A DNA stretch of 36,449 bases, taken from contig CAIKZJ010000355.1 of assembly GCA_903831845.1 (NCBI GenBank), positions 1 to 36,449 of the forward strand, written 5' to 3'. Positions 12,782-36,449 of the stretch are shown in pieces. Numbering within the stretch: the first letter of the stretch is position 1; every line of letters begins with the position of its first letter. A program made the position numbers and the translations under genes. The notes under the pieces are model-generated. The model did no database searches. It was given only the letters and a program-made list of their open reading frames with translations, and was not told the DNA's origin. The stretch is from an uncultured Ignavibacteriota bacterium. GTDB taxonomy: Bacteria; Bacteroidota; Ignavibacteria; Tepidaquicellales; Tepidaquicellaceae.

Positions 12782-14440
12782 TTATTTCGCATAAGCAATA
12801 CTTCTGCGCTCTCTTATTACGTTTATTTTTATCTGACCCGGATATTCCATTTCTTCCTGAATCTTATGCGCAATATCCTCGGCAAGCTGGTCCTGAAGAA
12901 CGTCGCTTATCTTGTCCTGCTCGACTATCACCCTGACCTCGCGTCCGGCCTGAATGGCGAATGTCTTCGAAACGCCTTCGAAAGATGTCGCAATAGCCTC
13001 GAGCTTTTCGAGCCTCTTCGAGTACGCCTCTACCGATTCCCTTCTCGCTCCGGGCCTTGCTCCGCTTATGGCGTCAGCCGCCTGCACGAGAACCGCTATA
13101 GGATGCTCCATGGGTATTTCATCGTGATGCGAACCGATGGCGTTGCAGACTATCGGATGCTCCTTGCACCTCTTTGAAATATCGTATCCGAGTAAAGCGT
13201 GAGGACCTTCGATGCTCCTGTCAACGGTCTTTCCGATGTCGTGGAACAAGCCTGCCCTCTTTGCCATCATAGCGTCAAGCCCAAGCTCCGCCGCCATGAT
13301 ACCCGCAATGTGGCCTACTTCTATCGAATGATTGAGTACGTTCTGGCCGTAACTCGAACGGTATTTCATTCTTCCTATCAGAGTTATTATGTCCCTGTTT
13401 ACGCCCTGTATTCCCATATCGATAAGTGTCTGCTCGCCTACGCGTATGATTTCCTCGTTAAGCTCCCTTTCAACTTTCTGAACGACTTCTTCGATTCTTG
13501 CAGGATGTATCCTTCCGTCCGCGATGAGCCTTTCCATGGCTATCCTTGCTATTTCCCTTCTGAACGGATCGAATCCGGAGATTATAATCGCTTCGGGAGT
13601 ATCGTCAACTATGATGTCGACGCCTGTTACCGCCTCGAACGCGCGGATGTTTCTTCCTTCCTTACCGATTATCCTGCCCTTGAGTTCATCTGACTGTATC
13701 TGCAGAACGCTTACCGTTGTTTCCACGGAGTGGTCGACGGCGGACCTCTGAATCGCCTGAATCACGATGTTCTTCGATATCTTGTTCGCCTCGAGCTTGG
13801 TCTGGTCGCGGACTTCCTGAAGCTTCTGGGCCGATTCCAGCTTTACCTGGTTCATAAGGCTTTCGAAGAGAATCTTCTTTGCCTCTTCTTCGCTAAGACC
13901 GGAAATTCTCTGAAGCTTTGTCTTCTGCTCCTCGATTAAATGATTGACTTCGGCTTCAAGCTTGTCGACCTGCTCTTTCTTTTCTGTGAATTCCTTAATT
14001 TTCGCGCTGTAATCGTTGTAAGCCTGCTGCGCGTTTGCTTCTTTCGCTACAAGGTCATTCTTGATTTTTTCCGCCGCTTCCTTTTCACTTTTAATTTTCT
14101 TCTCGATCTCGCCAATCTCCCTGTCGCGAGCTCTGCATTCTTCGTCGAATTTCTGTTTTCTCTTATAGAATTCGTCTTTGACCTCGAGTAATTTTTCTTT
14201 TTTAAGATTCTGAGCCGCTTTCTCCGCGTCTATCTTGAAGTTGCGCGCCCGTTTTTCCGCTTCCGATACGATTTCAGCCGATTTCGTTTCAGCTTCTTTC
14301 ATCATTCTCCTGACGACGTTTTCCGCGCCGTCTATCTTGTTCTTGTTTATCTTAACCTGTATAAACCATCCGATAAAAAATGTTATAAGGCACAATCCTA
14401 CAAGCATGGGAAGCAGTATGTATAATTCCATTTCCGGCAT
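12782..14440 (-). CDS. rny: Ribonuclease Y
   Basis: A 552-residue membrane-anchored endoribonuclease that initiates mRNA decay. An N-terminal transmembrane helix (about 5-28) is followed by a long coiled coil (about 40-210, very rich in Lys, Glu and Ala), a KH RNA-binding domain with GRIIGKEGRNIRAFE (255-269), and an HD phosphohydrolase domain with the metal ligands H371 (VLNHSIEVGH) and H400-D401 (AGLFHDIGKTVD). This is the full family architecture. The start at ATG 14440 gives MPEMELY; an internal ATG at codon 4 is also possible. It lies immediately downstream of the 6S RNA gene, an arrangement seen in other bacteria. Confidence 0.96.
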   Translation of the reverse strand: MPEMELYILLPMLVGLCLITFFIGWFIQVKINKNKIDGAENVVRRMMKEAETKSAEIVSEAEKRARNFKIDAEKAAQNLKKEKLLEVKDEFYKRKQKFDEECRARDREIGEIEKKIKSEKEAAEKIKNDLVAKEANAQQAYNDYSAKIKEFTEKKEQVDKLEAEVNHLIEEQKTKLQRISGLSEEEAKKILFESLMNQVKLESAQKLQEVRDQTKLEANKISKNIVIQAIQRSAVDHSVETTVSVLQIQSDELKGRIIGKEGRNIRAFEAVTGVDIIVDDTPEAIIISGFDPFRREIARIAMERLIADGRIHPARIEEVVQKVERELNEEIIRVGEQTLIDMGIQGVNRDIITLIGRMKYRSSYGQNVLNHSIEVGHIAGIMAAELGLDAMMAKRAGLFHDIGKTVDRSIEGPHALLGYDISKRCKEHPIVCNAIGSHHDEIPMEHPIAVLVQAADAISGARPGARRESVEAYSKRLEKLEAIATSFEGVSKTFAIQAGREVRVIVEQDKISDVLQDQLAEDIAHKIQEEMEYPGQIKINVIRERRSIAYAK

Positions 14441-14487: not shown

Positions 14488-14718
14488 AAAAAAAAACCGC
14501 AAGTCAGCATCAAAGGTTATATAGGAACCTTTGTAAGCAAACAGTGGGGGGCGCCAAAGTGTCGCGGTCTTCCAACGCTGCTCTTTATCCCGCCTCGACG
14601 GGAGAGCAAATCCGAAGATTGAGGCCTGACCTAGCACTTGAGAGCTAACCTCCCGGCTTATAGAAATTTGATGGTTCTATATAATGTTTGATGTATGGCT
14701 GGCTTGCGGTAAAACCGT
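14488..14718 (-). ncRNA. ssrS: 6S RNA (regulator of RNA polymerase), zapA-rny locus
   Basis: About 230 nt between zapA and rny, a known location of 6S RNA. On the minus strand the ends pair as ACCGCAAGCCAGC with GCTGACTTGCGGT (14710-14698 with 14496-14508, one mismatch). Next comes CATCAAA with TTTGATG (14693-14687 with 14514-14508) and TTATATAG with CTATATAA, giving a long rod. An unpaired middle region follows, and then an apical hairpin region including GCTCTCCCG...CGGGATAAAGAGC. T9 directly follows the closing stem and acts as terminator. 6S RNA mimics an open promoter and sequesters the sigma70 holoenzyme in stationary phase. Identification rests on synteny and the rod-like fold; I could not run a covariance model. 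Confidence 0.78.
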
Positions 14719-14723
14719 AATAT

Positions 14724-14751
14724 ATTTTAAAGAACTACAGATTATTGTCAA
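14724..14751 (-). promoter_or_regulatory. Sigma70-type promoter for the 6S RNA, inside the 3' end of zapA
   Basis: On the minus strand a perfect -35 TTGACA (14751-14746) and a -10 TAAAAT (14729-14724) are 16 bases apart. The expected start of transcription at about 14718-14716 falls a few bases before the closing stem of the 6S RNA, which supports both calls. Confidence 0.6.
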
Positions 14752-15034
14752 TTAATCTCGTTATTTCTTCTATCTTCGAGATGTTCGACTTCATGGCATC
14801 ATAGAATTCCTTCTGTGTCTCGGCTTTCTGGTCCTTCTCCCTGTAGTATGATTCGGCTATGTTTAGCGCCGATACCACGGCTACGGACTCTACCGACGTG
14901 TTAGGCGACTGAAAATTTATCCTCTGCATTATCTGATCGACATACTTCGCATATCTTTCCACTTCCGCGGGATTGTCACCCAGCAGGTTGTAATCACTGT
15001 TGAATATTTTTACTTTAATACCTGAAGTTTTCAT
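14735..15034 (-). CDS. zapA: Cell division protein ZapA
   Basis: A 99-residue cytoplasmic protein that cross-links and stabilises FtsZ filaments at the division ring. The N-terminal globular domain shows IKVKIFNSDYNLLGDNPAEVERYAKYVDQIM, the family pattern of a beta hairpin followed by a helix with a conserved YVD. The rest (about 50-99) is a helix that dimerises as a coiled coil (VVSALNIAESYYREKDQ). The length is normal. No strong Shine-Dalgarno site precedes ATG 15034. It lies 27 bp after the coiled-coil gene, with which it is probably co-transcribed. The 3' end contains the likely 6S promoter. Confidence 0.93.
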   Translation of the reverse strand: MKTSGIKVKIFNSDYNLLGDNPAEVERYAKYVDQIMQRINFQSPNTSVESVAVVSALNIAESYYREKDQKAETQKEFYDAMKSNISKIEEITRLIDNNL

Positions 15035-15061: not shown

Positions 15062-15451
15062 TTAATCTTCAAAATCTTGTACTTGATCTTCATACTGTTC
15101 TAAATGAACGTCTATCCTTGAGATCAATTCTTTTAATCTGGATCTTACTAACTCTTTGTCTCTTATATTGGTTGTATTCTTTTCCGCGCTCAACAGCATG
15201 TTCTTAAGGTCGGAAATTTCCTTTTCCTTGAACAATGTGTCGGAATTCATCTTGTTGAGCTGCAGTTTCAATTCCGTTATTTTGTTGTTTAAATCCTTTA
15301 TGCTTTCCTTAAGCTGATGATTCTCGTCGTTAAGTCCCCGGTTCCTGTTTACAAGCGCGTTCACTTTCTTGAGCATGTTGTCAAGGCTGAGATTGAATAT
15401 TCCCTGAAGCCTCGCAAGCTCTTCCCTGTTTATTTCGGGTTTGTTATCCAT
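15062..15451 (-). CDS. Small coiled-coil protein, possible ZapA/ZapB-type division partner
   Basis: A 129-residue cytoplasmic protein that is almost entirely predicted coiled coil (about 10-120), with heptad-like spacing in LKESIKDLNNKITELKLQLNKM and no signal peptide, Cys cluster or enzyme motif. Its start overlaps the pheT stop by 8 bp and zapA follows 27 bp later, so it is translated from the same message. Small coiled-coil proteins next to zapA are common in this group and some are annotated as ZapB-like. That name is inference from position and shape only, because coiled coils give little sequence evidence. Confidence 0.75.
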   Translation of the reverse strand: MDNKPEINREELARLQGIFNLSLDNMLKKVNALVNRNRGLNDENHQLKESIKDLNNKITELKLQLNKMNSDTLFKEKEISDLKNMLLSAEKNTTNIRDKELVRSRLKELISRIDVHLEQYEDQVQDFED

Positions 15452-27070: not shown

Positions 27071-30000
27071 TTACTTATTATTTTTATTATTTTTATTACC
27101 TTTTTCTTTGCCTGTGTTTTTTATCGCATTCTGTATATCGTTCACGTTTACTTTCTTTCTCCATGAATTGTCCGGTCCCGGAGGAGGTACCGACGGAATA
27201 GCTACCGTCAGACCGAAGTTAGCGGCGATTATCTGCACGTCGGAGGCGTTAACGTCGCCGTCGCCGTTGAAGTCGCAGCTTAAGTATCCCTGTGTTCCGA
27301 ACTGTCCGATGAATATCGAAATGTCAACAGCGTCAATAGAACCGTCGATATTGGCATCGCCGCCGTAGAGGACCCATGCCGTACCGACCTGTTTCATGTT
27401 GCTGCCGAATGCCTGCGTTGCAGCCGTTGTGAAGTCGTAGTTTAACGGTGTTCCGCCTGAGAACGTCTGCGCCGTTGCGCTCCACGTCTGCAGGTGATTC
27501 CTGTGCTGTACTACGATGTAGTAACTTCCGGCTGTCGCGCGGTAGAAGTTCATCGAAGCTGTTCCTGTCGCGCTCAACACCACCTTGGCGGTGTCTACGT
27601 AAGCGTGCGGCGTTGTCGCGCCTGCAAGATATACGTACACTGTATCGCTAACGTGTGTCGAACCGTCCCAGAATCCTTCAAGATATACTTTCAGGTTCAG
27701 TGTCAGTGACAGAGACAATGTCGTGAAGTTGAATTTAGACGCCCAAGGACCTGTGCCGCCGGCGTTTGTTGCATTTACTCTCCAGTAATATTTCGTTGTC
27801 TGGCTGAGTTTTCCTGAAGGAACTGTCACAGATGTAGTTCCTACTCCGGCTGTATCCCATTGAGTCGTTGCAAACGTCGAGTCGGCGGATACCTGATAGC
27901 GGTACGTGACCGCGTTCGGTACGCTGCTCCATGTGCATGCCGGTGTCAGTGAAACACCCGTAGATCCGTTTGCAGGTGTCAGTAGTGTCGGAGCAACAGG
28001 AGCCGCAACGACTGTCGTAAAGTTCCAGACTGCGGAATAAGAGCCTGTTCCGGAACCGTTCGTAGCGTTTACTCTCCAGTAGTATTTCGTCAGATTTGCA
28101 AGTTTACCGGCGGGTACAACGTTTGATGTACCTGTGACGCCGGTAGTATCCCACTGCGTTGTGGCAAACGTACTGTCAGTAGAAACCTGCAGACGATAAC
28201 TAACCGCGTATGTAACCGAATTCCAGGATAATGTCGGCGTAAGCGAAAGACCCGTGGTTCCGTTTGCCGGCGATAACAATGTCGGAGCTGCCGGCACCGG
28301 AGGTGCGGTGGTAAAGCTCCAGGCTGAACTGAATGAACCCCATCCAGTCTGGTTCTTTCCTTTCACTCTCCAGAAGTACTTTGTCACGTAAGAAAGTCCC
28401 GAAAGCGCTTTCGTCGTGTCTGTAAGGGTCGTATCCCTGATAACTCCCGTGGCAAATGTCGAGTCGGTTGTGTATTCAAACCAGTAGTTCGCCATTGTAA
28501 GCGGTGAATCACCTTTACCCTTTGAGATGTTCGATCCCTTTCTTAATGCAAGCGTTTCAACGGATTTAAGCCATACGCATGTCAATGATATCGGCTGATT
28601 CGTTGAACCGTTCGCCGGAGAAACAAGCACCGGCGCGTTAGGTACAAGCGGCGCGGTGGTAAAGTTCCAGTTTCCAGAATAAACGCTCGTGCCGACAGCA
28701 TTCGTAGCGTTTACTCTCCAGTAGTACTTTGTATTCGTTGTAAGCTTGCCGGAAGGAACAGTTATTGACGTTCCAGTGTATCCGGCTGTGTCAAAGTTTG
28801 TTGTTGTGTACGTGGAATCGGTCGAAACCTGCAGCCTGTAACTAAGAGCTGTGTTGACTGAATTCCATGTGATTGTCGGTGTCGTCGAGAGATCGAGAGA
28901 TCCGTTCGTCGGCGATACCTGTACAGGCGCGTTAAAGAGAGGCGCGTCGTTTATCGCCAGAACCAGAGGAGTTGTGCCCGTTAGCGGATTAATTGTGTTC
29001 ACTCCGCTCGGCCATATGCCCGTCGAGTTCGTGTTGAATGAAATGAGCGAACCGTTGGTTAATCCTCTCTGTTCGACTCTCTGTACGCCCGTCGCAAGTG
29101 CATTCGGGAGAATCGCGCCCCATCTGCCGTTCTGGTTATCGACGTTCGATGTGTAGAACGGTACAGCGCTCGGAAGAGTTATCGTATCCGATTCGAGCCA
29201 GGTTGAAGCAAGCGGCTTGCCCGTGCCGGCAGTGTTGTCGTAAACTGCTACCATGTTCCGCGGCAATCCGTAAGAAATGCCGTAGACACCGGTGCCGTTC
29301 GGCAGTCCTGATGTAGTGGAGAACGCCAGAACATTTATAGAGTCGCTCATCGCGTAACGCGCTAATACTGTTCCGACGGAGTCGCCGATGACGACTGACG
29401 GATATACGTAATTGCCCGCCGTGAATCTTGCATTTCCGGAGTTGAGCCCGCCGAACCATCCGGTATAGTTACCCGATGCGTCAGCTACGAACTGCCCGTA
29501 AGAACCGGCAGTTGTAAGGCTTCCTGTCGATGCATAATTGAACACGCCGTTCGGGTTGAGTATCATAATTATACCCGCGCCGAGACCTGTTGTGCCGAGG
29601 TCCGTGCTGACGGCAAACAGGTTGTAATACCTGTATGTCTTGCCCGGTACCAGACCTGAAATCGTACCTCTTACTGCAACCGGCAGTCTTGTAGCCGTGC
29701 CCGATGCCATGTATTTCGGACAGATCACAGGAGCGAAGTTCGACATTGAAAGTGCTGTCGGATCGGACGATGTTCTGAAATTCCATACCGCCGACCACGC
29801 GCTTGTGCTTACAATGTTCGTAGCGTTTACTCTCCAGTAATACTTCGTGTTGTACGCCAGCACCAATGATAACTGCGCTACCGTTACTCCCGAAGTGTCC
29901 TTAAATGTCGTGGCAAATGTAGAGTCTGTAGATACCTGTATCCTGTAACTTGCAGCGTAAGGAACCGCCTGCCATGTTATCGTCGGCGACGGGTTTACGT

Positions 30001-33000
30001 TAATCGCGCCGTTTGCAGGCGTGAGAAGTACCGGTACAGTCGGAGCAGGTACTATCGTTGTGAAGTTCCACGTGCTGCTGAAATTACCCCAGCCGAACTG
30101 GTTCTTCGCTTTTACTCTCCAGTAATATGTTGCAGCGTTTGTAAGACCCGATACGGCTCTCGTGGAGTCTGTCAAAGTCGAGTCTCTTAAGAATACAGTC
30201 GCAAAGGTCGAATCCGTACTTAATTCGAACCAGTAGTTACCTACCGAATTGGGTCCGTTCGGAGTCGATCCGTTATTTCCTTTTGTATTTGTTGTTGTGT
30301 TAGCTCCGTTATTTCTGTTCTTGCCGGAAAGATTGAATGTCTGGTCGCCGGCCTTGAACCAGTTGAAATTAAGACTGATGGCCTGGTTCGTTGCCCCGTT
30401 CGAAGGCGAATTGAGAACTACAGTATTGGGAGTTCCGATTGCCTTGAACTTGAACGTGCTTGATACCATGTACTTTCCAACAGCGCCAGTCGAATAGACA
30501 GGATATACTCTCCAGTAATAGTAAGTGAGAGGCGATGCGCCTGCGAACGAATATGTCGAATCCGTAGGTGTGCCGGTCGCTACTATTGAATTGAATAATG
30601 AGTCTGTCGCTATCTGTACGAGATAAGAAGCGGCAAACAAAGGTTTGTTCCATACGAGCTGTACCGGAGTCTGATTACCCGTGCTTCCGTTAGCGGGTGA
30701 AATCAGTGTCGGTACAACAGGTTTAGTAAGCGTGAATTCGTGCGAACCGATACAGACCAGTCCTGACACGCTTCTCGGATTACCGTTATAGTCATTCGTA
30801 AGGCCTAATCCGTTCACTTTTTGATAGACATAAGCCGCTCCGAATTTTGTAGTGTCAACGTTCAGATCTCCGCCCGCCGCGTTTCTGTACAGAATCGTGC
30901 CGGGAAGATTTGACGACGTTTCCCAGTAACTGTTCGCGTCGCAGTTCGCCGAATATACCCACTGATCGTAGGTCTGGAAGTTGCCGACGCCCCATTCACC
31001 GATCCTGTTGTAAGCTGCTACAAGCAGGTTGGAATTGGATGAATTTGCCGGCCATCCTTCTATAAGGCTTCCTTCGTTGGCGAGAGCAAGATGATAACCG
31101 CCGCCGCCCGTTCTTGCGTTCACGAATATGTTATTCTTCATGTTCAGAAGACCATTGCCCGTCCTCACGAACGCGTAGGAGTTGAACGATGAGGTGCCCG
31201 GTACCGAACCTCCTACGTAGAAACTGTTGTTGATGTAGTTCACGTTGCCTTTCCATGTGTTGTTTGTATGGTAGTTCGCGGCAATCGTGATTTCAGACGT
31301 TGAATTCGGATGGTCTCCGTTCTTGCCGAAATTCGGTTTCTGGACATCTCCCTTGGATTCATCATATATTCCGGGGTGACGCAGTCCTTCAAGAACCGGA
31401 GCTTTCAGGATTTCTTCGTTCTGTGTAATCGCTTTCAGGTTTATCGGCGGATTAACTACCGGTACCTGTTTGAATGTAAGCTTCGAAGGATCAACAAGTT
31501 TATCAGAAGGTTCTCCGTTCGTGAAGCTTACCTGATTGTTTACTATGTTCCAAACACCGTAGCTCTGGCAGTTTAGACCCAGAATAAGAGGATACGGATT
31601 TGAAACGCCTATACCTGAATATTTGAAGTCAAATATCTTGTTGTTCGCGCAGTAGCCGCCGGTGTATCCGCCAAGAAGCATCGCTCCCATTAGAGGCGTG
31701 CCGCCGCCGGTACCGTTTGAATACAAGCCGTAAATATTGTTGTTCGTTACTGTGTTGAAATCATATGCCGAACATCCGATGCCGAGAAGAGCATACGACG
31801 CGCTCGGTATGTTCTGGTTCACAGTAAGGTATCTCACGGTATTGCCGGTTATGGTTATCGGGGCAAAACCGGTAGTATTATGCTGAATACCGTATACCGA
31901 CACGAGACCGAGTGTTCCGGATATTGTATTGAACGATGTTATGTTCGACACGATATTATTTGTAATGTAATTCGTCGTACCGGTGCTGTTGAGGTAATAC
32001 ATACCTCTCAATGCATGGTAATTCGTGTTGTTCGTACACTGAATCGAGTTTGCGGTCGATAAACTTCCTATCAGGTTGTTGCTGACAGTGTAGATCTGGC
32101 CCGCGGTTGAGTTCGACCAGTATAAGCCGGCATAAAGATCGCCTGTTCCTGTCGAGTTACCCGCAAATGTTATACTGCCAATAGTGTTGTTCATCACCGA
32201 ACCGATACCAAGATGATAAATCATGGCAATAGTGTATGATGCTGTCGAAGTATTGGTTGTCAGCGATATGTTGCCTGTACCGGTACCCGAACCGATAGTG
32301 TTTCCGCTCAGGTTACCGATGTTGACATAACCGCTTGATACATAGATCGGCCTGTAGAATGCCGAACTGCTCGCTGCAGGACTTGTAGTTAAGTTAACAT
32401 TTCCGAACGTATTGCCCTGAATGCTTGACGGTGACAGCAGACCGACAGTAAGATAAACCGGGTACAAGGAATATGCGCCCGCTCCCGTGTATGTCAGAGC
32501 CGTGCCGCCGCATGTCGGGGCCGTGCCGCCGAAGTAATTGTTAAGTACCTTTATGTCGTTGTTCAAAGAACTTGAACTGTATATATCGCAGACGCTCGTC
32601 GCGTTTACGGGAATACTTCTCGAAACAGTCTGATAGAAACTGTTGCCGCTTATTACCCAGTTCGTGTTGTATGACGAGAGGTAAACGCCGGCTATAGTCG
32701 AACCTGCATCGTAGAAGTAATTATAGATATTGTTGTTTATTACCGAATTGAAATTATTGTAAGTCAGCAGGGTGCTCGATGCGCCGAGAGAGTAAATCGC
32801 GTTCGCGTATACTGCCGTCGTATCGCTTCTGTCCCTGATGTCGTTGCTGTTGACGCAGATACTGTCGTTACCGATGCCCGTCGGCACTGTTGTCGCGGCG
32901 AAATAAATAAGACCGCTGCCTGTGCCGTAGTTTGCACCTTCGATAGTACAGTTCTTAAGAGTGTCAACACCCGTTTCAAACATGAACTGAATGACCGGGT

Positions 33001-36000
33001 TAACCGTGCCGACAGATTTGTTCCTGAATCTGAGGTATTTTGAGCCTAAACCGTTATCGCCGTCAATAGTGACTCTTCTGACGCCGTTAAGCCTTATCAT
33101 TGCCTGTGACGCGACCCAGCCAGATATTGTTTTAAGCGTCGCGTCGGCTGATACTATCCTTACTTTATATCTTCCGGCGCCGGTTTCGTTCAATGCGTTA
33201 AGAGCATTCGTTCCGTCTTCCGTGAGGTCCGAAGTAATGCTGATTGTTATATCCCCTGATACAGTACCTGCATTAAGAGCCGCGAAAATACCGCCCGCGC
33301 TCGTCAGCGAGGTATATGTCTGACCTGTACCTACAGGAATTACACCCGAGAATGTCGCTGTACCTATAGTGTATGTCAGATAATTGGAAATCGGACAGTT
33401 TGTTGTAGTAAGCGCAACCGAAGTCGGCGCTGTCGTGAATGTCGCCTGGTTTGAAGCTACATTCGGCGTTCCGTTGAGGTCCTGGGCAATTACAAAATAC
33501 TGAATTATATTGCCCGCCGCAACGCCGGTGCCGCCGTAAAGCAGCGAATAGTCGATTGTGAAATCGAACGGAGATGTTGTTCCGTTCGCTTCAACGTATT
33601 TCCATCCGTTTGTAGCGTTTGTATTGTCGTTTATTATAGTCGTATCGGTCGATCTCTTGTAATACACTCTCGGCTTTGTGCCTGAAGTAGTATTTACTCC
33701 GGCAGGCGCCGTGATTGTAACATTATTGAATGACCTGTTGGTCGTTCCGCCTATTCCGAGCGGTGTGTATGTTATCACCGGACCGGTGACGTTGTTACGC
33801 AGTCCGCCGAATTCATGCGCGCCGATATCAGGATTGGTCGGAGTGAATCCGCCTACCGGATATCCCGCATTCGGATACCTTGCCGTGCCGAAAGCGTCAT
33901 CCGTGATGTTCACGGAATTCGTCGGCGTCGAAATAACCTGGCCGCCGCTTTCCAGACCCGTCGCCGTACCTGTAGAAATGTGCAGGTCGTAAGGCGCAGT
34001 CGTGCTGTTTACGAACGGAGGCATTTCCGAAATAGAGTTGTTGTCTCTCGATACCATCCTCGTCTTGTATGCCGCGAGAGTCTGGTCCGAGTTCGTGCCG
34101 TCATAATATATAAGGTGGTTTGCTGAAGGCGTGCCTGCGTAGAAGCAGTTGTTATTGCCGTTAAGGTAAGTCGTCAAAGTTGTTGACGAACGCCTGTACG
34201 CTACTGCAAATCCGCCCGTCGCGCCCGGAGTCGAATTATCGACGAAAATATTATTACGTAAATCGACGTTATATGTCGTGCTTACGTACAATGCCGCTGT
34301 ACCGAACGTTGTCGCCGAAGTACTTGTGGCTTTGAGGTAAACAGTGTTGTCGTACAGATAATTGTATGTACAGCCGGCGATATAAATACCGGCAACCGCC
34401 GGAGCAATACTGGTACTGGCTGTTGCATTAACATCCGTCACAATATTGTTGTAAACGTTTGTCACCGTGCCGCCGGATATGTACATTCCGTACGCTAAAG
34501 CGGTTGTGCTGGTTGTGGTTGATATGCCGTTTATCCTGTTCTTGTATATGCTGACAGGATTCCCGTTAACGGAATACAAGCCGTATACGGTTCCGCCCGC
34601 GCTTACAAGGTTGAAAATCGAATCCTGAGAGAAATTAGCAATCGTCGTAGTGGTTGGGTTGTTGTTCAGACCGTAAATCGTACCCGCGCCACCTACCGTG
34701 AAGTTTCCGATTTTGTTATTGATGAAGTTAACATAGTTCGGCGGTGAACCGATCTGGTAAAGACCGTAAACCGTCGTTGCCGCCGCGCTCGTGATATTCG
34801 TTATCGTGTTGTTGTTCATATTAATCGTACCTGCCGCGGAGCCGCCGTGATACAGACCGTAAATCGTTCCTGTACCGGTGGCCGTCAACTTTGACTGATT
34901 GTTGACCAGGTTATTAGTGATGTTTTCGACCGAACCGATGGGCGGAGTCGTGTAAGGACTGTGATACAGGCTGTATAAAGTGCCCGAACCGCTCATGCTG
35001 TTGCCGCTGACGGTGTTATTGCTGAAATCCATATTTGCAGCCGCAGCACCGTTGTACAGACAGTAATAACTTGTCGAACTTGTAGACGGCGAAGTGTTGT
35101 TGCCTACAAAGTTACTGTCGGTCTGGCTGTAAAGATATGACTGATAATAATAGTTGTAGAAACCGTACATCGTCGCGGTTGCGGTAGTTCCGCAAAGCGT
35201 GTTGTTTACTATTCTGTTTTTATTTGAAATTGCCGTATCAGCGAGTATATAATTGTACATCTGATACGCTGTGTATGAAGTCGTTCCTAATACGGTGTTT
35301 CCCGAGTCAAGGTTGTTGTAGAAATAACTCCTGTTCGAGGCCATACCGTAATTATAGATATCGTATGTATACGATGTCGAGGAACCGGCAACGCCGAAAG
35401 TATTGCCGTAGACCTTGTTGTTCATCACATAATTATTCTGCATGTAGGCCTGACTTCCCGCTGCCGTATAATTATATATGTAATAATTGTAGTAAGTCGA
35501 TGTCGTCGGATTAACGCATCCTGTTACAACGTTGTTTGATACAGTATTGTTAATACCGTAATAAGTGTAGTTGTAAATGCCGTACTGCGTGCCGAGAGAA
35601 CCCGTCGTATCTACGAGTGTAACCGTGTCATTCATTACTGTACAGTTGCCGCTGTTATAGTACGCGTAATTGTAAATACCGTACAGACCGCCGGTTGAGT
35701 TTATTCCTCCCCTGCTGTTAATGTAAGTATTCGTAATTGTAGGATTACACTGATAATTCGCATAAATACCGTAGGCAGTGGTTGAAGACCCGCCGAAATT
35801 GGTGATTGTATTTCTTCCTGAACCTGTCGTGCTGATGACGTTGCTCTGATCCTCGAGAGAGAACGGGAATGTGCCGTCAGAGGGACTGTTCAGGTAAATA
35901 CCGCCGTAGCAGCTGGAAATGTTGTTGCTGAGGAACTGGTTGTATGAGTTCGTTCCCGAGGTGGCCGATATAGTCTGAGCCACACCCGTGAGGTTTAAAT

Positions 36001-36449
36001 TCGATGAATAAATTCCGTATGTTGCAGTATTTGTCTTAATAAGAGAAATGTTGCAATTTTTAATCGTTATGTTCTGGTTACCGTGTGTTCCGTCCGGTCT
36101 GAGCAGAGCATAACCCCATTCCATCTGTGTCGCAGTCGTTGTGTTCGCCGACGTATCACGCAAGTCAATGCCGTCGAATATCAAATAAGTTGCGCCGTAG
36201 AACTTTATGATACCGTCAAAAGAACCGGATCCAGTGCCCGCAACTATAGCGGGGTTCGAACCTGTTCCGGATTTCTGGAAAGTAACGGTATTGCCTGCCG
36301 AACCTGTTGAAGTAATCGTTAGGTTCGATGCAACTTCCCTGTAATCTGCAGCTACATTGAATATAACCGGACAGGTTATAACACCCTGAGCGTTGATTGC
36401 CGTTATAGCAGCGGCTATAGTGGGATAACTTCCCGGAATAGTATAAGTA
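27071..36449 (-). CDS. Giant repeat surface protein (two beta-helices, seven FN3, dockerin-like end), 5' end outside window
   Basis: At least 3125 residues. Reading the minus frame above 36184 shows no stop up to 36449, so the start is off the window; the first visible residues include YPTIAAAITAINAQG, typical of the beginning of a beta-helix module. In order: beta-helix A (36449-33800, Tyr/Asn-rich rungs such as YGIYNY and NNTVSGN, closing NPDIGAHEFGG); a beta-sandwich linker (33800-33345); beta-helix B (33345-30740, closing GSHEF); FN3 1-3 (30740-29770); an unassigned domain (29750-28950); FN3 4-7 (28950-27720); and a C-terminal module with two calcium-loop-like dockerin repeats (DANIDGSIDAVD, DFNGDGDVNASD). 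It ends in a Lys/Asn tail. It is probably an exported adhesin or matrix protein. The beta-helix resembles pectate-lyase folds but no catalytic site is evident. Confidence 0.85.
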   Translation of the reverse strand, partial: TYTIPGSYPTIAAAITAINAQGVITCPVIFNVAADYREVASNLTITSTGSAGNTVTFQKSGTGSNPAIVAGTGSGSFDGIIKFYGATYLIFDGIDLRDTSANTTTATQMEWGYALLRPDGTHGNQNITIKNCNISLIKTNTATYGIYSSNLNLTGVAQTISATSGTNSYNQFLSNNISSCYGGIYLNSPSDGTFPFSLEDQSNVISTTGSGRNTITNFGGSSTTAYGIYANYQCNPTITNTYINSRGGINSTGGLYGIYNYAYYNSGNCTVMNDTVTLVDTTGSLGTQYGIYNYTYYGINNTVSNNVVTGCVNPTTSTYYNYYIYNYTAAGSQAYMQNNYVMNNKVYGNTFGVAGSSTSYTYDIYNYGMASNRSYFYNNLDSGNTVLGTTSYTAYQMYNYILADTAISNKNRIVNNTLCGTTATATMYGFYNYYYQSYLYSQTDSNFVGNNTSPSTSSTSYYCLYNGAAAANMDFSNNTVSGNSMSGSGTLYSLYHSPYTTPPIGSVENITNNLVNNQSKLTATGTGTIYGLYHGGSAAGTINMNNNTITNITSAAATTVYGLYQIGSPPNYVNFINNKIGNFTVGGAGTIYGLNNNPTTTTIANFSQDSIFNLVSAGGTVYGLYSVNGNPVSIYKNRINGISTTTSTTALAYGMYISGGTVTNVYNNIVTDVNATASTSIAPAVAGIYIAGCTYNYLYDNTVYLKATSTSATTFGTAALYVSTTYNVDLRNNIFVDNSTPGATGGFAVAYRRSSTTLTTYLNGNNNCFYAGTPSANHLIYYDGTNSDQTLAAYKTRMVSRDNNSISEMPPFVNSTTAPYDLHISTGTATGLESGGQVISTPTNSVNITDDAFGTARYPNAGYPVGGFTPTNPDIGAHEFGGLRNNVTGPVITYTPLGIGGTTNRSFNNVTITAPAGVNTTSGTKPRVYYKRSTDTTIINDNTNATNGWKYVEANGTTSPFDFTIDYSLLYGGTGVAAGNIIQYFVIAQDLNGTPNVASNQATFTTAPTSVALTTTNCPISNYLTYTIGTATFSGVIPVGTGQTYTSLTSAGGIFAALNAGTVSGDITISITSDLTEDGTNALNALNETGAGRYKVRIVSADATLKTISGWVASQAMIRLNGVRRVTIDGDNGLGSKYLRFRNKSVGTVNPVIQFMFETGVDTLKNCTIEGANYGTGSGLIYFAATTVPTGIGNDSICVNSNDIRDRSDTTAVYANAIYSLGASSTLLTYNNFNSVINNNIYNYFYDAGSTIAGVYLSSYNTNWVISGNSFYQTVSRSIPVNATSVCDIYSSSSLNNDIKVLNNYFGGTAPTCGGTALTYTGAGAYSLYPVYLTVGLLSPSSIQGNTFGNVNLTTSPAASSSAFYRPIYVSSGYVNIGNLSGNTIGSGTGTGNISLTTNTSTASYTIAMIYHLGIGSVMNNTIGSITFAGNSTGTGDLYAGLYWSNSTAGQIYTVSNNLIGSLSTANSIQCTNNTNYHALRGMYYLNSTGTTNYITNNIVSNITSFNTISGTLGLVSVYGIQHNTTGFAPITITGNTVRYLTVNQNIPSASYALLGIGCSAYDFNTVTNNNIYGLYSNGTGGGTPLMGAMLLGGYTGGYCANNKIFDFKYSGIGVSNPYPLILGLNCQSYGVWNIVNNQVSFTNGEPSDKLVDPSKLTFKQVPVVNPPINLKAITQNEEILKAPVLEGLRHPGIYDESKGDVQKPNFGKNGDHPNSTSEITIAANYHTNNTWKGNVNYINNSFYVGGSVPGTSSFNSYAFVRTGNGLLNMKNNIFVNARTGGGGYHLALANEGSLIEGWPANSSNSNLLVAAYNRIGEWGVGNFQTYDQWVYSANCDANSYWETSSNLPGTILYRNAAGGDLNVDTTKFGAAYVYQKVNGLGLTNDYNGNPRSVSGLVCIGSHEFTLTKPVVPTLISPANGSTGNQTPVQLVWNKPLFAASYLVQIATDSLFNSIVATGTPTDSTYSFAGASPLTYYYWRVYPVYSTGAVGKYMVSSTFKFKAIGTPNTVVLNSPSNGATNQAISLNFNWFKAGDQTFNLSGKNRNNGANTTTNTKGNNGSTPNGPNSVGNYWFELSTDSTFATVFLRDSTLTDSTRAVSGLTNAATYYWRVKAKNQFGWGNFSSTWNFTTIVPAPTVPVLLTPANGAINVNPSPTITWQAVPYAASYRIQVSTDSTFATTFKDTSGVTVAQLSLVLAYNTKYYWRVNATNIVSTSAWSAVWNFRTSSDPTALSMSNFAPVICPKYMASGTATRLPVAVRGTISGLVPGKTYRYYNLFAVSTDLGTTGLGAGIIMILNPNGVFNYASTGSLTTAGSYGQFVADASGNYTGWFGGLNSGNARFTAGNYVYPSVVIGDSVGTVLARYAMSDSINVLAFSTTSGLPNGTGVYGISYGLPRNMVAVYDNTAGTGKPLASTWLESDTITLPSAVPFYTSNVDNQNGRWGAILPNALATGVQRVEQRGLTNGSLISFNTNSTGIWPSGVNTINPLTGTTPLVLAINDAPLFNAPVQVSPTNGSLDLSTTPTITWNSVNTALSYRLQVSTDSTYTTTNFDTAGYTGTSITVPSGKLTTNTKYYWRVNATNAVGTSVYSGNWNFTTAPLVPNAPVLVSPANGSTNQPISLTCVWLKSVETLALRKGSNISKGKGDSPLTMANYWFEYTTDSTFATGVIRDTTLTDTTKALSGLSYVTKYFWRVKGKNQTGWGSFSSAWSFTTAPPVPAAPTLLSPANGTTGLSLTPTLSWNSVTYAVSYRLQVSTDSTFATTQWDTTGVTGTSNVVPAGKLANLTKYYWRVNATNGSGTGSYSAVWNFTTVVAAPVAPTLLTPANGSTGVSLTPACTWSSVPNAVTYRYQVSADSTFATTQWDTAGVGTTSVTVPSGKLSQTTKYYWRVNATNAGGTGPWASKFNFTTLSLSLTLNLKVYLEGFWDGSTHVSDTVYVYLAGATTPHAYVDTAKVVLSATGTASMNFYRATAGSYYIVVQHRNHLQTWSATAQTFSGGTPLNYDFTTAATQAFGSNMKQVGTAWVLYGGDANIDGSIDAVDISIFIGQFGTQGYLSCDFNGDGDVNASDVQIIAANFGLTVAIPSVPPPGPDNSWRKKVNVNDIQNAIKNTGKEKGNKNNKNNK
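27771..30525 (-). repeat. Dispersed DNA block repeated in the FN3 array
   Basis: The plus-strand word ACTCTCCAGTARTA recurs at about 27777, 28071, 28713, 29829, 30113 and 30507, with a variant (CACTCTCCAGAAGTA) near 28366. It encodes YYWRV of each FN3 unit and in several copies extends to GTAGCGTTTACTCTCCAGTA (YYWRVNAT). Confidence 0.85.

Follow-up and report, generated by a model that had tools for sequence, protein, structure and literature searches.

How 6S RNA lets go of polymerase is established for E. coli and for B. subtilis, and the two differ; PMC8876501 describes a release hairpin in the 6S RNA of E. coli and its absence from those of B. subtilis and A. aeolicus. In the E. coli genome, zapA is followed by the 6S RNA gene ssrS on the same strand.

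The locus described here lies within the window, the whole stretch of DNA analysed (36,449 nucleotides), in a zapA-rny spacer of 294 nt. On the basis of homology, synteny, co-variation of three pairings, a predicted switch and a conserved boxA-like motif, all obtained by computation, the minus strand of this spacer (14710-14488) very probably codes for the 6S RNA (ssrS) of an Ignavibacteria-type bacterium, in which a rod alternates with a release hairpin (H3) accompanied by a second hairpin (H5), and which is probably made from a boxA-bearing precursor. The flanks assigned in the preliminary description were confirmed as ZapA and RNase Y, and its placement of the organism agrees with the nearest rny relatives, which sit in records named Ignavibacteria, Ignavibacteriae or Bacteroidetes MAGs.

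12782-14440, minus strand: rny (RNase Y), with Pfam RNase_Y_N (E 7e-36), KH_1 and HD; it adjoins all 30 RF00013 loci fetched from the phylum sample
14488-14710, minus strand: 6S RNA as read here, 5′ end at about 14710 and 3′ end in the T run 14496-14488, from the R1 match, RF00013-matching homologs and the fold (z −3.55)
14735-15034, minus strand: zapA, Pfam ZapA E 7.3e-13; the order zapA-ssrS is also that of E. coli

The 3′ end of the RNA is separated from the rny ORF by 47 nt. Elsewhere in the window, a 129-aa ORF between zapA and a pheT-like gene (15062-15451) had a weak ZapB match below the cut-off (E 0.0011), and a 3037-aa ORF at 27071-36184 contained stretches of Ig-like/fn3 type and, close to the C terminus, a dockerin-type domain.

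An Rfam scan of the window returned no 6S match at the curated cut-off, and none in the spacer even at E≤10; RF00013 had no match in the organism's own genome. The 6S identity proposed in the preliminary description was instead borne out by homologs. The rny gene was located in 56 of the 59 genomes searched, own genome included, and the spacers were extracted; a search pattern located this RNA in 39 of 50 rny loci (L001-L050). Alignment A1 comprised 36 copies, with L035, L047 and L050 left out, and the shared blocks were AGAACC, GGGAG, CAGGCC, CAGTGGAAG, GGCACC-CCCAC and GGTTCT. When 20 class- and order-level loci were compared with all Rfam models, RF00013 was the top match in the spacers of the relatives, with hits at four loci: L045 (47.1 bits, cut-off 46.4), L038 (38.3 bits), L040 (33.7 bits) and, non-significantly, L048 (19.5 bits, E 3.7). 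Besides L045, two of the same-place copies matched at E 0.00013 and 0.0015, and the alignment of RF00013 to the homologs spans the whole model. No further Rfam family was found at E≤0.01 in the 14 loci scanned, and the remaining rows of the 20-locus scan (E 0.29 to 8.4) fall outside the RNA. The comparison supports the window RNA as a 6S RNA, the copy being too diverged for the Rfam model.

A covariance model, R1, was built from the 36 copies. It matched the window at 14490-14710 with 164 bits and found the RNA in 354 of 391 genomes drawn from the class, the matches of the window copy and the 35 others being by construction. In the phylum sample, RF00013 matched 42 of 296 genomes at E≤0.001, none of them over the cut-off. 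Thirty of these loci were fetched, 27 from outside the class and three from family f22 inside it; each is directly adjoined by rny, and R1 found the RNA at the same place in every one, 27 at above 70 bits and three at 32-36 bits. The phylum alignment A3 was made without L162, L170 and L187 (32-36 bits). At E≤1, R1 gave no match to E. coli ssrS, an SRP locus or two 16S loci. Among 29 loci of named records it located the RNA ahead of rny in 22; the seven misses were three contig edges, two Bacteroidaceae/Prevotellaceae and two distant candidate phyla. In the Bacteroidaceae/Prevotellaceae MAGs (L214 and L215), where R1 finds nothing before rny, the 6S RNA may have been lost, moved or strongly diverged. 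The RNA matches were 185-264 nt long, for an expected 6S RNA length of about 180-260 nt, and the RNA has a closing stem and a U run at the 3′ end.

The minus strand of the spacer folds at −74.6 kcal/mol against a shuffle mean of −58.1 (z −3.55), beating all 200 dinucleotide shuffles. The fold is a 6S-type rod with a closing stem, a large central bubble and an internal stem, and the closing stem, inner stems (P1c, P2) and terminator T run reported in the preliminary description are all present.

14703-14710, minus strand: closing stem, 5′ strand, pairing with 14503-14496 (ACCGCAAG/CUUGCGGU)
14687-14692, minus strand: P1c, 5′ side AUCAAA, pairing with UUUGAU at 14514-14509
14673-14684, minus strand: P2, 5′ strand, UUAUAUAG-AACC, the switching rod helix and presumed product-RNA template
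14517-14529, minus strand: P2, 3′ strand, GGUU-C-CUAUAUAA
14496-14503, minus strand: closing stem, 3′ strand, followed by the U run

P2 consists of UUAUAUAG/CUAUAUAA plus AACC/GGUU, and the template role of its 5′ strand is presumed by analogy with E. coli 6S RNA. The T run counts nine T at 14496-14488. The first six pairs of the closing stem are standard in 35-36 of the 36 aligned rows, and a six-pair internal helix shows 19 further pair types.

For the wider comparison, 100 loci were used as input to the R1 alignment, leaving out L018, L019, L026, L027, L031-L033, L035, L044, L046, L047, L050 and L155, together with L087-L089 from another three order-level genomes and any locus from a genome already included; 30 antisense rows of 130 were dropped, giving 100 sense copies aligned to R1 (A2). 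As 60 loci were added from the best-scoring matches listed among the 391 class genomes, all counts out of 100 below are biased towards better matches.

The TTGACA/TAAAAT promoter of the preliminary description exists as sequence (16-nt spacing, 11 of 12 bases), with TTGACA inside the zapA reading frame, but shuffles of the region contain a mean of 1.0 promoter-like site, and it is not conserved. A sigma-70 hexamer pair within 60 nt upstream was found in just two of 100 copies, and such a promoter was rejected as a conserved feature. The upstream region does carry a conserved heptamer.

14729-14735, minus strand: boxA-like GTTCTTT, sharing one base with the zapA stop codon (its last) and one with TAAAAT (its first)

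In 66 of 100 copies GTTCTTT lies no more than 60 nt upstream, against none in antisense, two in the next 60 nt and a mean of 0.7 (maximum 4) in mononucleotide shuffles, and it ends 8-48 nt from the RNA. With one-base variants allowed, the motif occurs in 68 copies and is lacking in 32; it is missing, variants included, in all 12 copies of family f17 and all seven of f3, and GTTCTTT was absent from the 80 nt upstream of all 23 f37 copies. The heptamer is named boxA-like after the boxA of rRNA leaders, whose E. coli form is TGCTCTTT. No 16S was found in the own genome, so the leaders of relatives were used: of 12 relatives' genomes searched, eight had 16S, and seven leaders were read, one split copy being left out. 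All seven contained GTTCTTT, 84-145 nt ahead of 16S, and one f3 genome (G054) has it before 16S although its family lacks it before the 6S RNA. The 12-mer TTCTTTRAMATA was rejected as a genome-wide boxA finder, with 17 matches compared with 11 for the reversed control; no tRNAs lay near eight of its other matches in the genome. Upstream of E. coli ssrS, no GTTCTTT or similar motif was seen by eye in 120 nt.

Its sense-strand conservation and its presence in the rRNA leaders argue for GTTCTTT as a boxA. It is unlikely that the heptamer instead belongs to a promoter, or that it duplicates the P2 3′ strand and pairs with the nascent 5′ strand; the resemblance of GTTCTTT to the 3′-strand GGUUCUUU in many relatives would fit such a duplicate, but the heptamer is unchanged where the P2 core is AAAACC (11), AGAATC (2) or AGATCC (1), and its variable distance from the RNA and its place before 16S in each leader read both speak against such roles. 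boxA acts as RNA, and the 6S RNA would therefore be cut from a longer transcript.

Within the 3′ strand, the perfect 8-bp inverted repeat CAAAGGTT/AACCTTTG noticed earlier was found at 14533-14526/14518-14511.

14511-14533, minus strand: H3, 3′-strand release hairpin, CAAAGGUU/AACCUUUG, 8 bp with a 7-nt loop, −6.4 kcal/mol alone
14655-14672, minus strand: Y, the 5′ side of the central bubble, co-varying with X, the stretch before the AGAACC core (X:Y z −10.3)

H3 shares bases with P1c and P2, so that H3 and the rod are mutually exclusive. In its make-up of 3′ bubble plus P2 3′ strand, and in its exclusion by the rod, H3 corresponds to an E. coli-type release hairpin, as judged from sequence, folds, co-variation and the E. 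coli control. A second alternative hairpin, overlooked in the preliminary description, was found in the 5′ strand: in H5, UUCUAUA (14665-14659, in Y) pairs with UAUAGAA (14681-14675), and this hairpin appears in the window RNA once H3 is enforced. The energies of the two states, which the preliminary description had proposed to compare, are −74.2 kcal/mol for the rod and −71.3 for enforced H3 with H5, placing the latter fold 2.9 kcal/mol above the rod.

Co-variation was assessed on four stretches cut from the copies: X, before the AGAACC core; Y, the 5′ bubble; Z, the 3′ bubble; and X′, which follows the GGUUCU core. In an own-versus-foreign partner test, the duplex energy of own pairs was compared with that of partners drawn from other species, using those 80 of the 100 copies whose mutual identity is below 80%. 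Own partners paired better for P2 (X:X′; −2.86 against −1.66, z −8.5), H3 (Z:X′; −6.15 against −4.25, z −9.6) and H5 (X:Y; −3.61 against −2.03, z −10.3), when the control pairings Y:X′ (z −0.8) and Y:Z (z +0.6) were flat. A further intended control, X:Z, scored z −3.8, so some shared-ancestry or further pairing signal sits in the test. Among the 23 copies less than 55% identical, the scores were −4.0 for P2, −3.2 for H3 and −5.8 for H5, with −2.9 for X:Z, −1.4 for Y:X′ and +1.8 for Y:Z. The X:Z signal, which corresponds to 14692-14679 and 14543-14530 of the window, is unaccounted for by rod, H3 or H5.

On a structure-blind MAFFT alignment, the covariation score was 0.216 for the rod (shuffle mean 0.146) and 0.211 for H3 (shuffle mean 0.161), neither being reached by any of 500 shuffles. 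For the rod, the numbers of pairs changed on both sides and of further pair types were reached by 57 and 224 of 500 shuffles, neither standing out clearly. For H3 on A1, these same two measures of five did not exceed shuffles, and three counts were higher when the partners were shifted by +2 (6, 21 and 15) than for the structure itself (3, 19 and 10). RNAalifold found just 17 pairs on the MAFFT alignment, because P2 is misaligned across families. A simpler test, in which the fold energy of the 3′ strand was set beside that of its dinucleotide shuffles (80 copies, mean z −1.35), was discarded, since the 5′ strand, chosen as a silent control, was equally negative (−1.45) and the test alone proves nothing about H3; following up this control revealed H5, and the partner test took the place of the fold-energy test. 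Between families the arms can be wholly different with the hairpin still kept, e.g. GAAAGAG/CTCTTTC and GUGU..UGAAA/UUUCA..ACAC. The arms of 14511-14533 co-vary across relatives, as do the competing rod and H5.

The predicted switch was followed by folding with the template masked, the mask covering 14 nt of the presumed template and H3 being counted at four or more expected pairs. H3 formed in 93 of 100 copies when masked, against 45 unmasked and 42 with the apical stretch masked, and the rod dropped from 70 to eight copies on template masking. In the window RNA, the expected H3 pairs rose from 0.1 in the free fold to 7.8; at least seven H3 pairs were reached once 8 to 11 nucleotides were masked, the number varying with the start assumed, and masks shorter than 8 nt had erratic effects (0.1 to 6.7 pairs). 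By the same procedure E. coli 6S RNA, the positive control, went from 1.4 to 8.95 hairpin pairs. Together with the co-variation, these folds bear out the competition between hairpin and rod that had been suggested from the window.

The families differed in this respect. A single copy of family f50 rose from 4.4 to 8.2 H3 pairs on masking, and all three f22 copies formed H3 equally masked and unmasked. In family f37 (Bacteroidota), all 23 copies formed at most 1.2 extended-H3 pairs on masking and held a local 5-bp hairpin in the free fold (3.2-4.9 pairs). At these 23 loci (within L160-L189), a short 3′-bubble hairpin of CCGUG/CACGG type replaces the extended release hairpin. Over the 100 copies, the unmasked fold already held H5 in 43 and H3 in 45, and in such copies, as in f22, the hairpin is not dependent on product RNA in silico. 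The H5 count of the free folds and the gap of 2.9 kcal/mol in the window make rod and cross, i.e. H5 plus H3, look like two kept states; for some relatives, L100 and L028 among them, the cross is the predicted form.

It is improbable that the RNA is a 6S RNA with a static 3′-bubble hairpin as in B. subtilis, or that H3 is a by-product of folding, without any release switch. A hairpin of this kind would be in keeping with the H3 seen unmasked in nearly half of the copies, with the indifference of f22 to masking and with the local hairpin of f37, and a short 3′-bubble hairpin in free B. subtilis 6S-1 RNA is described in PMC8876501; but H3 takes the P2 3′ strand and so cannot coexist with the rod, which in the window excludes it until the template is masked, and the rod and H3 pairings both co-vary. 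Far less credible still is a different structured RNA, either a 5′ leader of rny such as an RNase Y autoregulatory element, which adjacency to rny in the loci examined and the short distance to its ORF would allow, or a diverged SRP RNA, since RF00013 covers the homologs from end to end, closing stem and U run suggest a separate RNA, the zapA-linked RNA of E. coli is 6S RNA with fau and not rny as the next gene, and the SRP RNA was located elsewhere in the genome, that identity being rejected.

Under the preferred reading of a 6S RNA with a rod/H3 release switch, the central bubble of the resting rod would mimic an open promoter and hold the housekeeping RNA polymerase, as in other 6S RNAs. 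With the 5′ strand of bubble and P2 as its template, polymerase would make a product RNA, with a predicted start near GAUGGUUC, opposite 14672-14668. The freed 3′ strand of P2 would then snap into H3 (14533-14511) and help to eject the RNA, in the manner of the E. coli-type release hairpin, and H5 could form in the 5′ strand, where it draws on the 5′ arm of P2. Rod and H5+H3 cross may be alternative folds kept by selection, the rod being favoured by about 3 kcal/mol in the species of the window. Transcription of the gene probably yields a longer RNA, in which a boxA signal would stand before the 6S part and from which the latter would be trimmed.

More tentatively, and somewhat short of an even chance in our estimation, Ignavibacteria and related lineages might in general make their 6S RNA from a boxA-antiterminated precursor, and the RNA might be truly bistable, switching between rod and four-way cross with both folds selected. 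In the four-way cross (H5+H3), the AACC and GGUU cores would be facing loops that could kiss. If this holds, a boxA-antiterminated 6S RNA would couple an inhibitor of polymerase to the machinery of rRNA antitermination, and two global controls of growth would be connected through a boxA-like signal ahead of 6S RNA. Searches for boxA with 6S RNA and antitermination, and for 6S RNA with Ignavibacter, found no literature; the searched literature covers few subscription papers, and the absence is weak evidence of novelty. One match for boxA and 6S RNA together concerns Shigella invE according to its title and the start of its abstract.

Compared with the E. coli/gamma-proteobacterial 6S RNA (ssrS, RF00013), the window RNA shares the zapA-ssrS order, the rod with a central bubble and a hairpin of the 3′ bubble plus P2 3′ strand that emerges on template occupation (mechanism as given in PMC8876501). 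It differs in that the next gene is rny, not fau, the sequence of H3 is unrelated, and GTTCTTT stands upstream, where none was seen by eye before the E. coli gene; RF00013 fails to match the window and most of the genomes sampled across the phylum. Through the co-variation, an E. coli-type hairpin gains evolutionary support at a great distance from the proteobacteria, with a partner fold in the 5′ strand added. With B. subtilis 6S-1 and A. aeolicus 6S RNA the window RNA has in common the rod, the central bubble and, as predicted here, the logic of the product RNA; on release those RNAs form a central bubble collapse helix and no extended 3′-bubble hairpin, according to PMC8876501. The 6S RNAs of family f37 share with the window RNA the place before rny, the core motifs and the R1 match, and they also match RF00013; they differ in forming no extended H3 on masking and in carrying no upstream GTTCTTT, and their local 5-bp hairpin means that one family of the same phylum carries a B. 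subtilis-like form. Like the boxA of rRNA operons, the GTTCTTT described here stands on the sense strand just ahead of a structured untranslated RNA; unlike it, the motif precedes a 6S RNA, with a putative role for NusB/S10.
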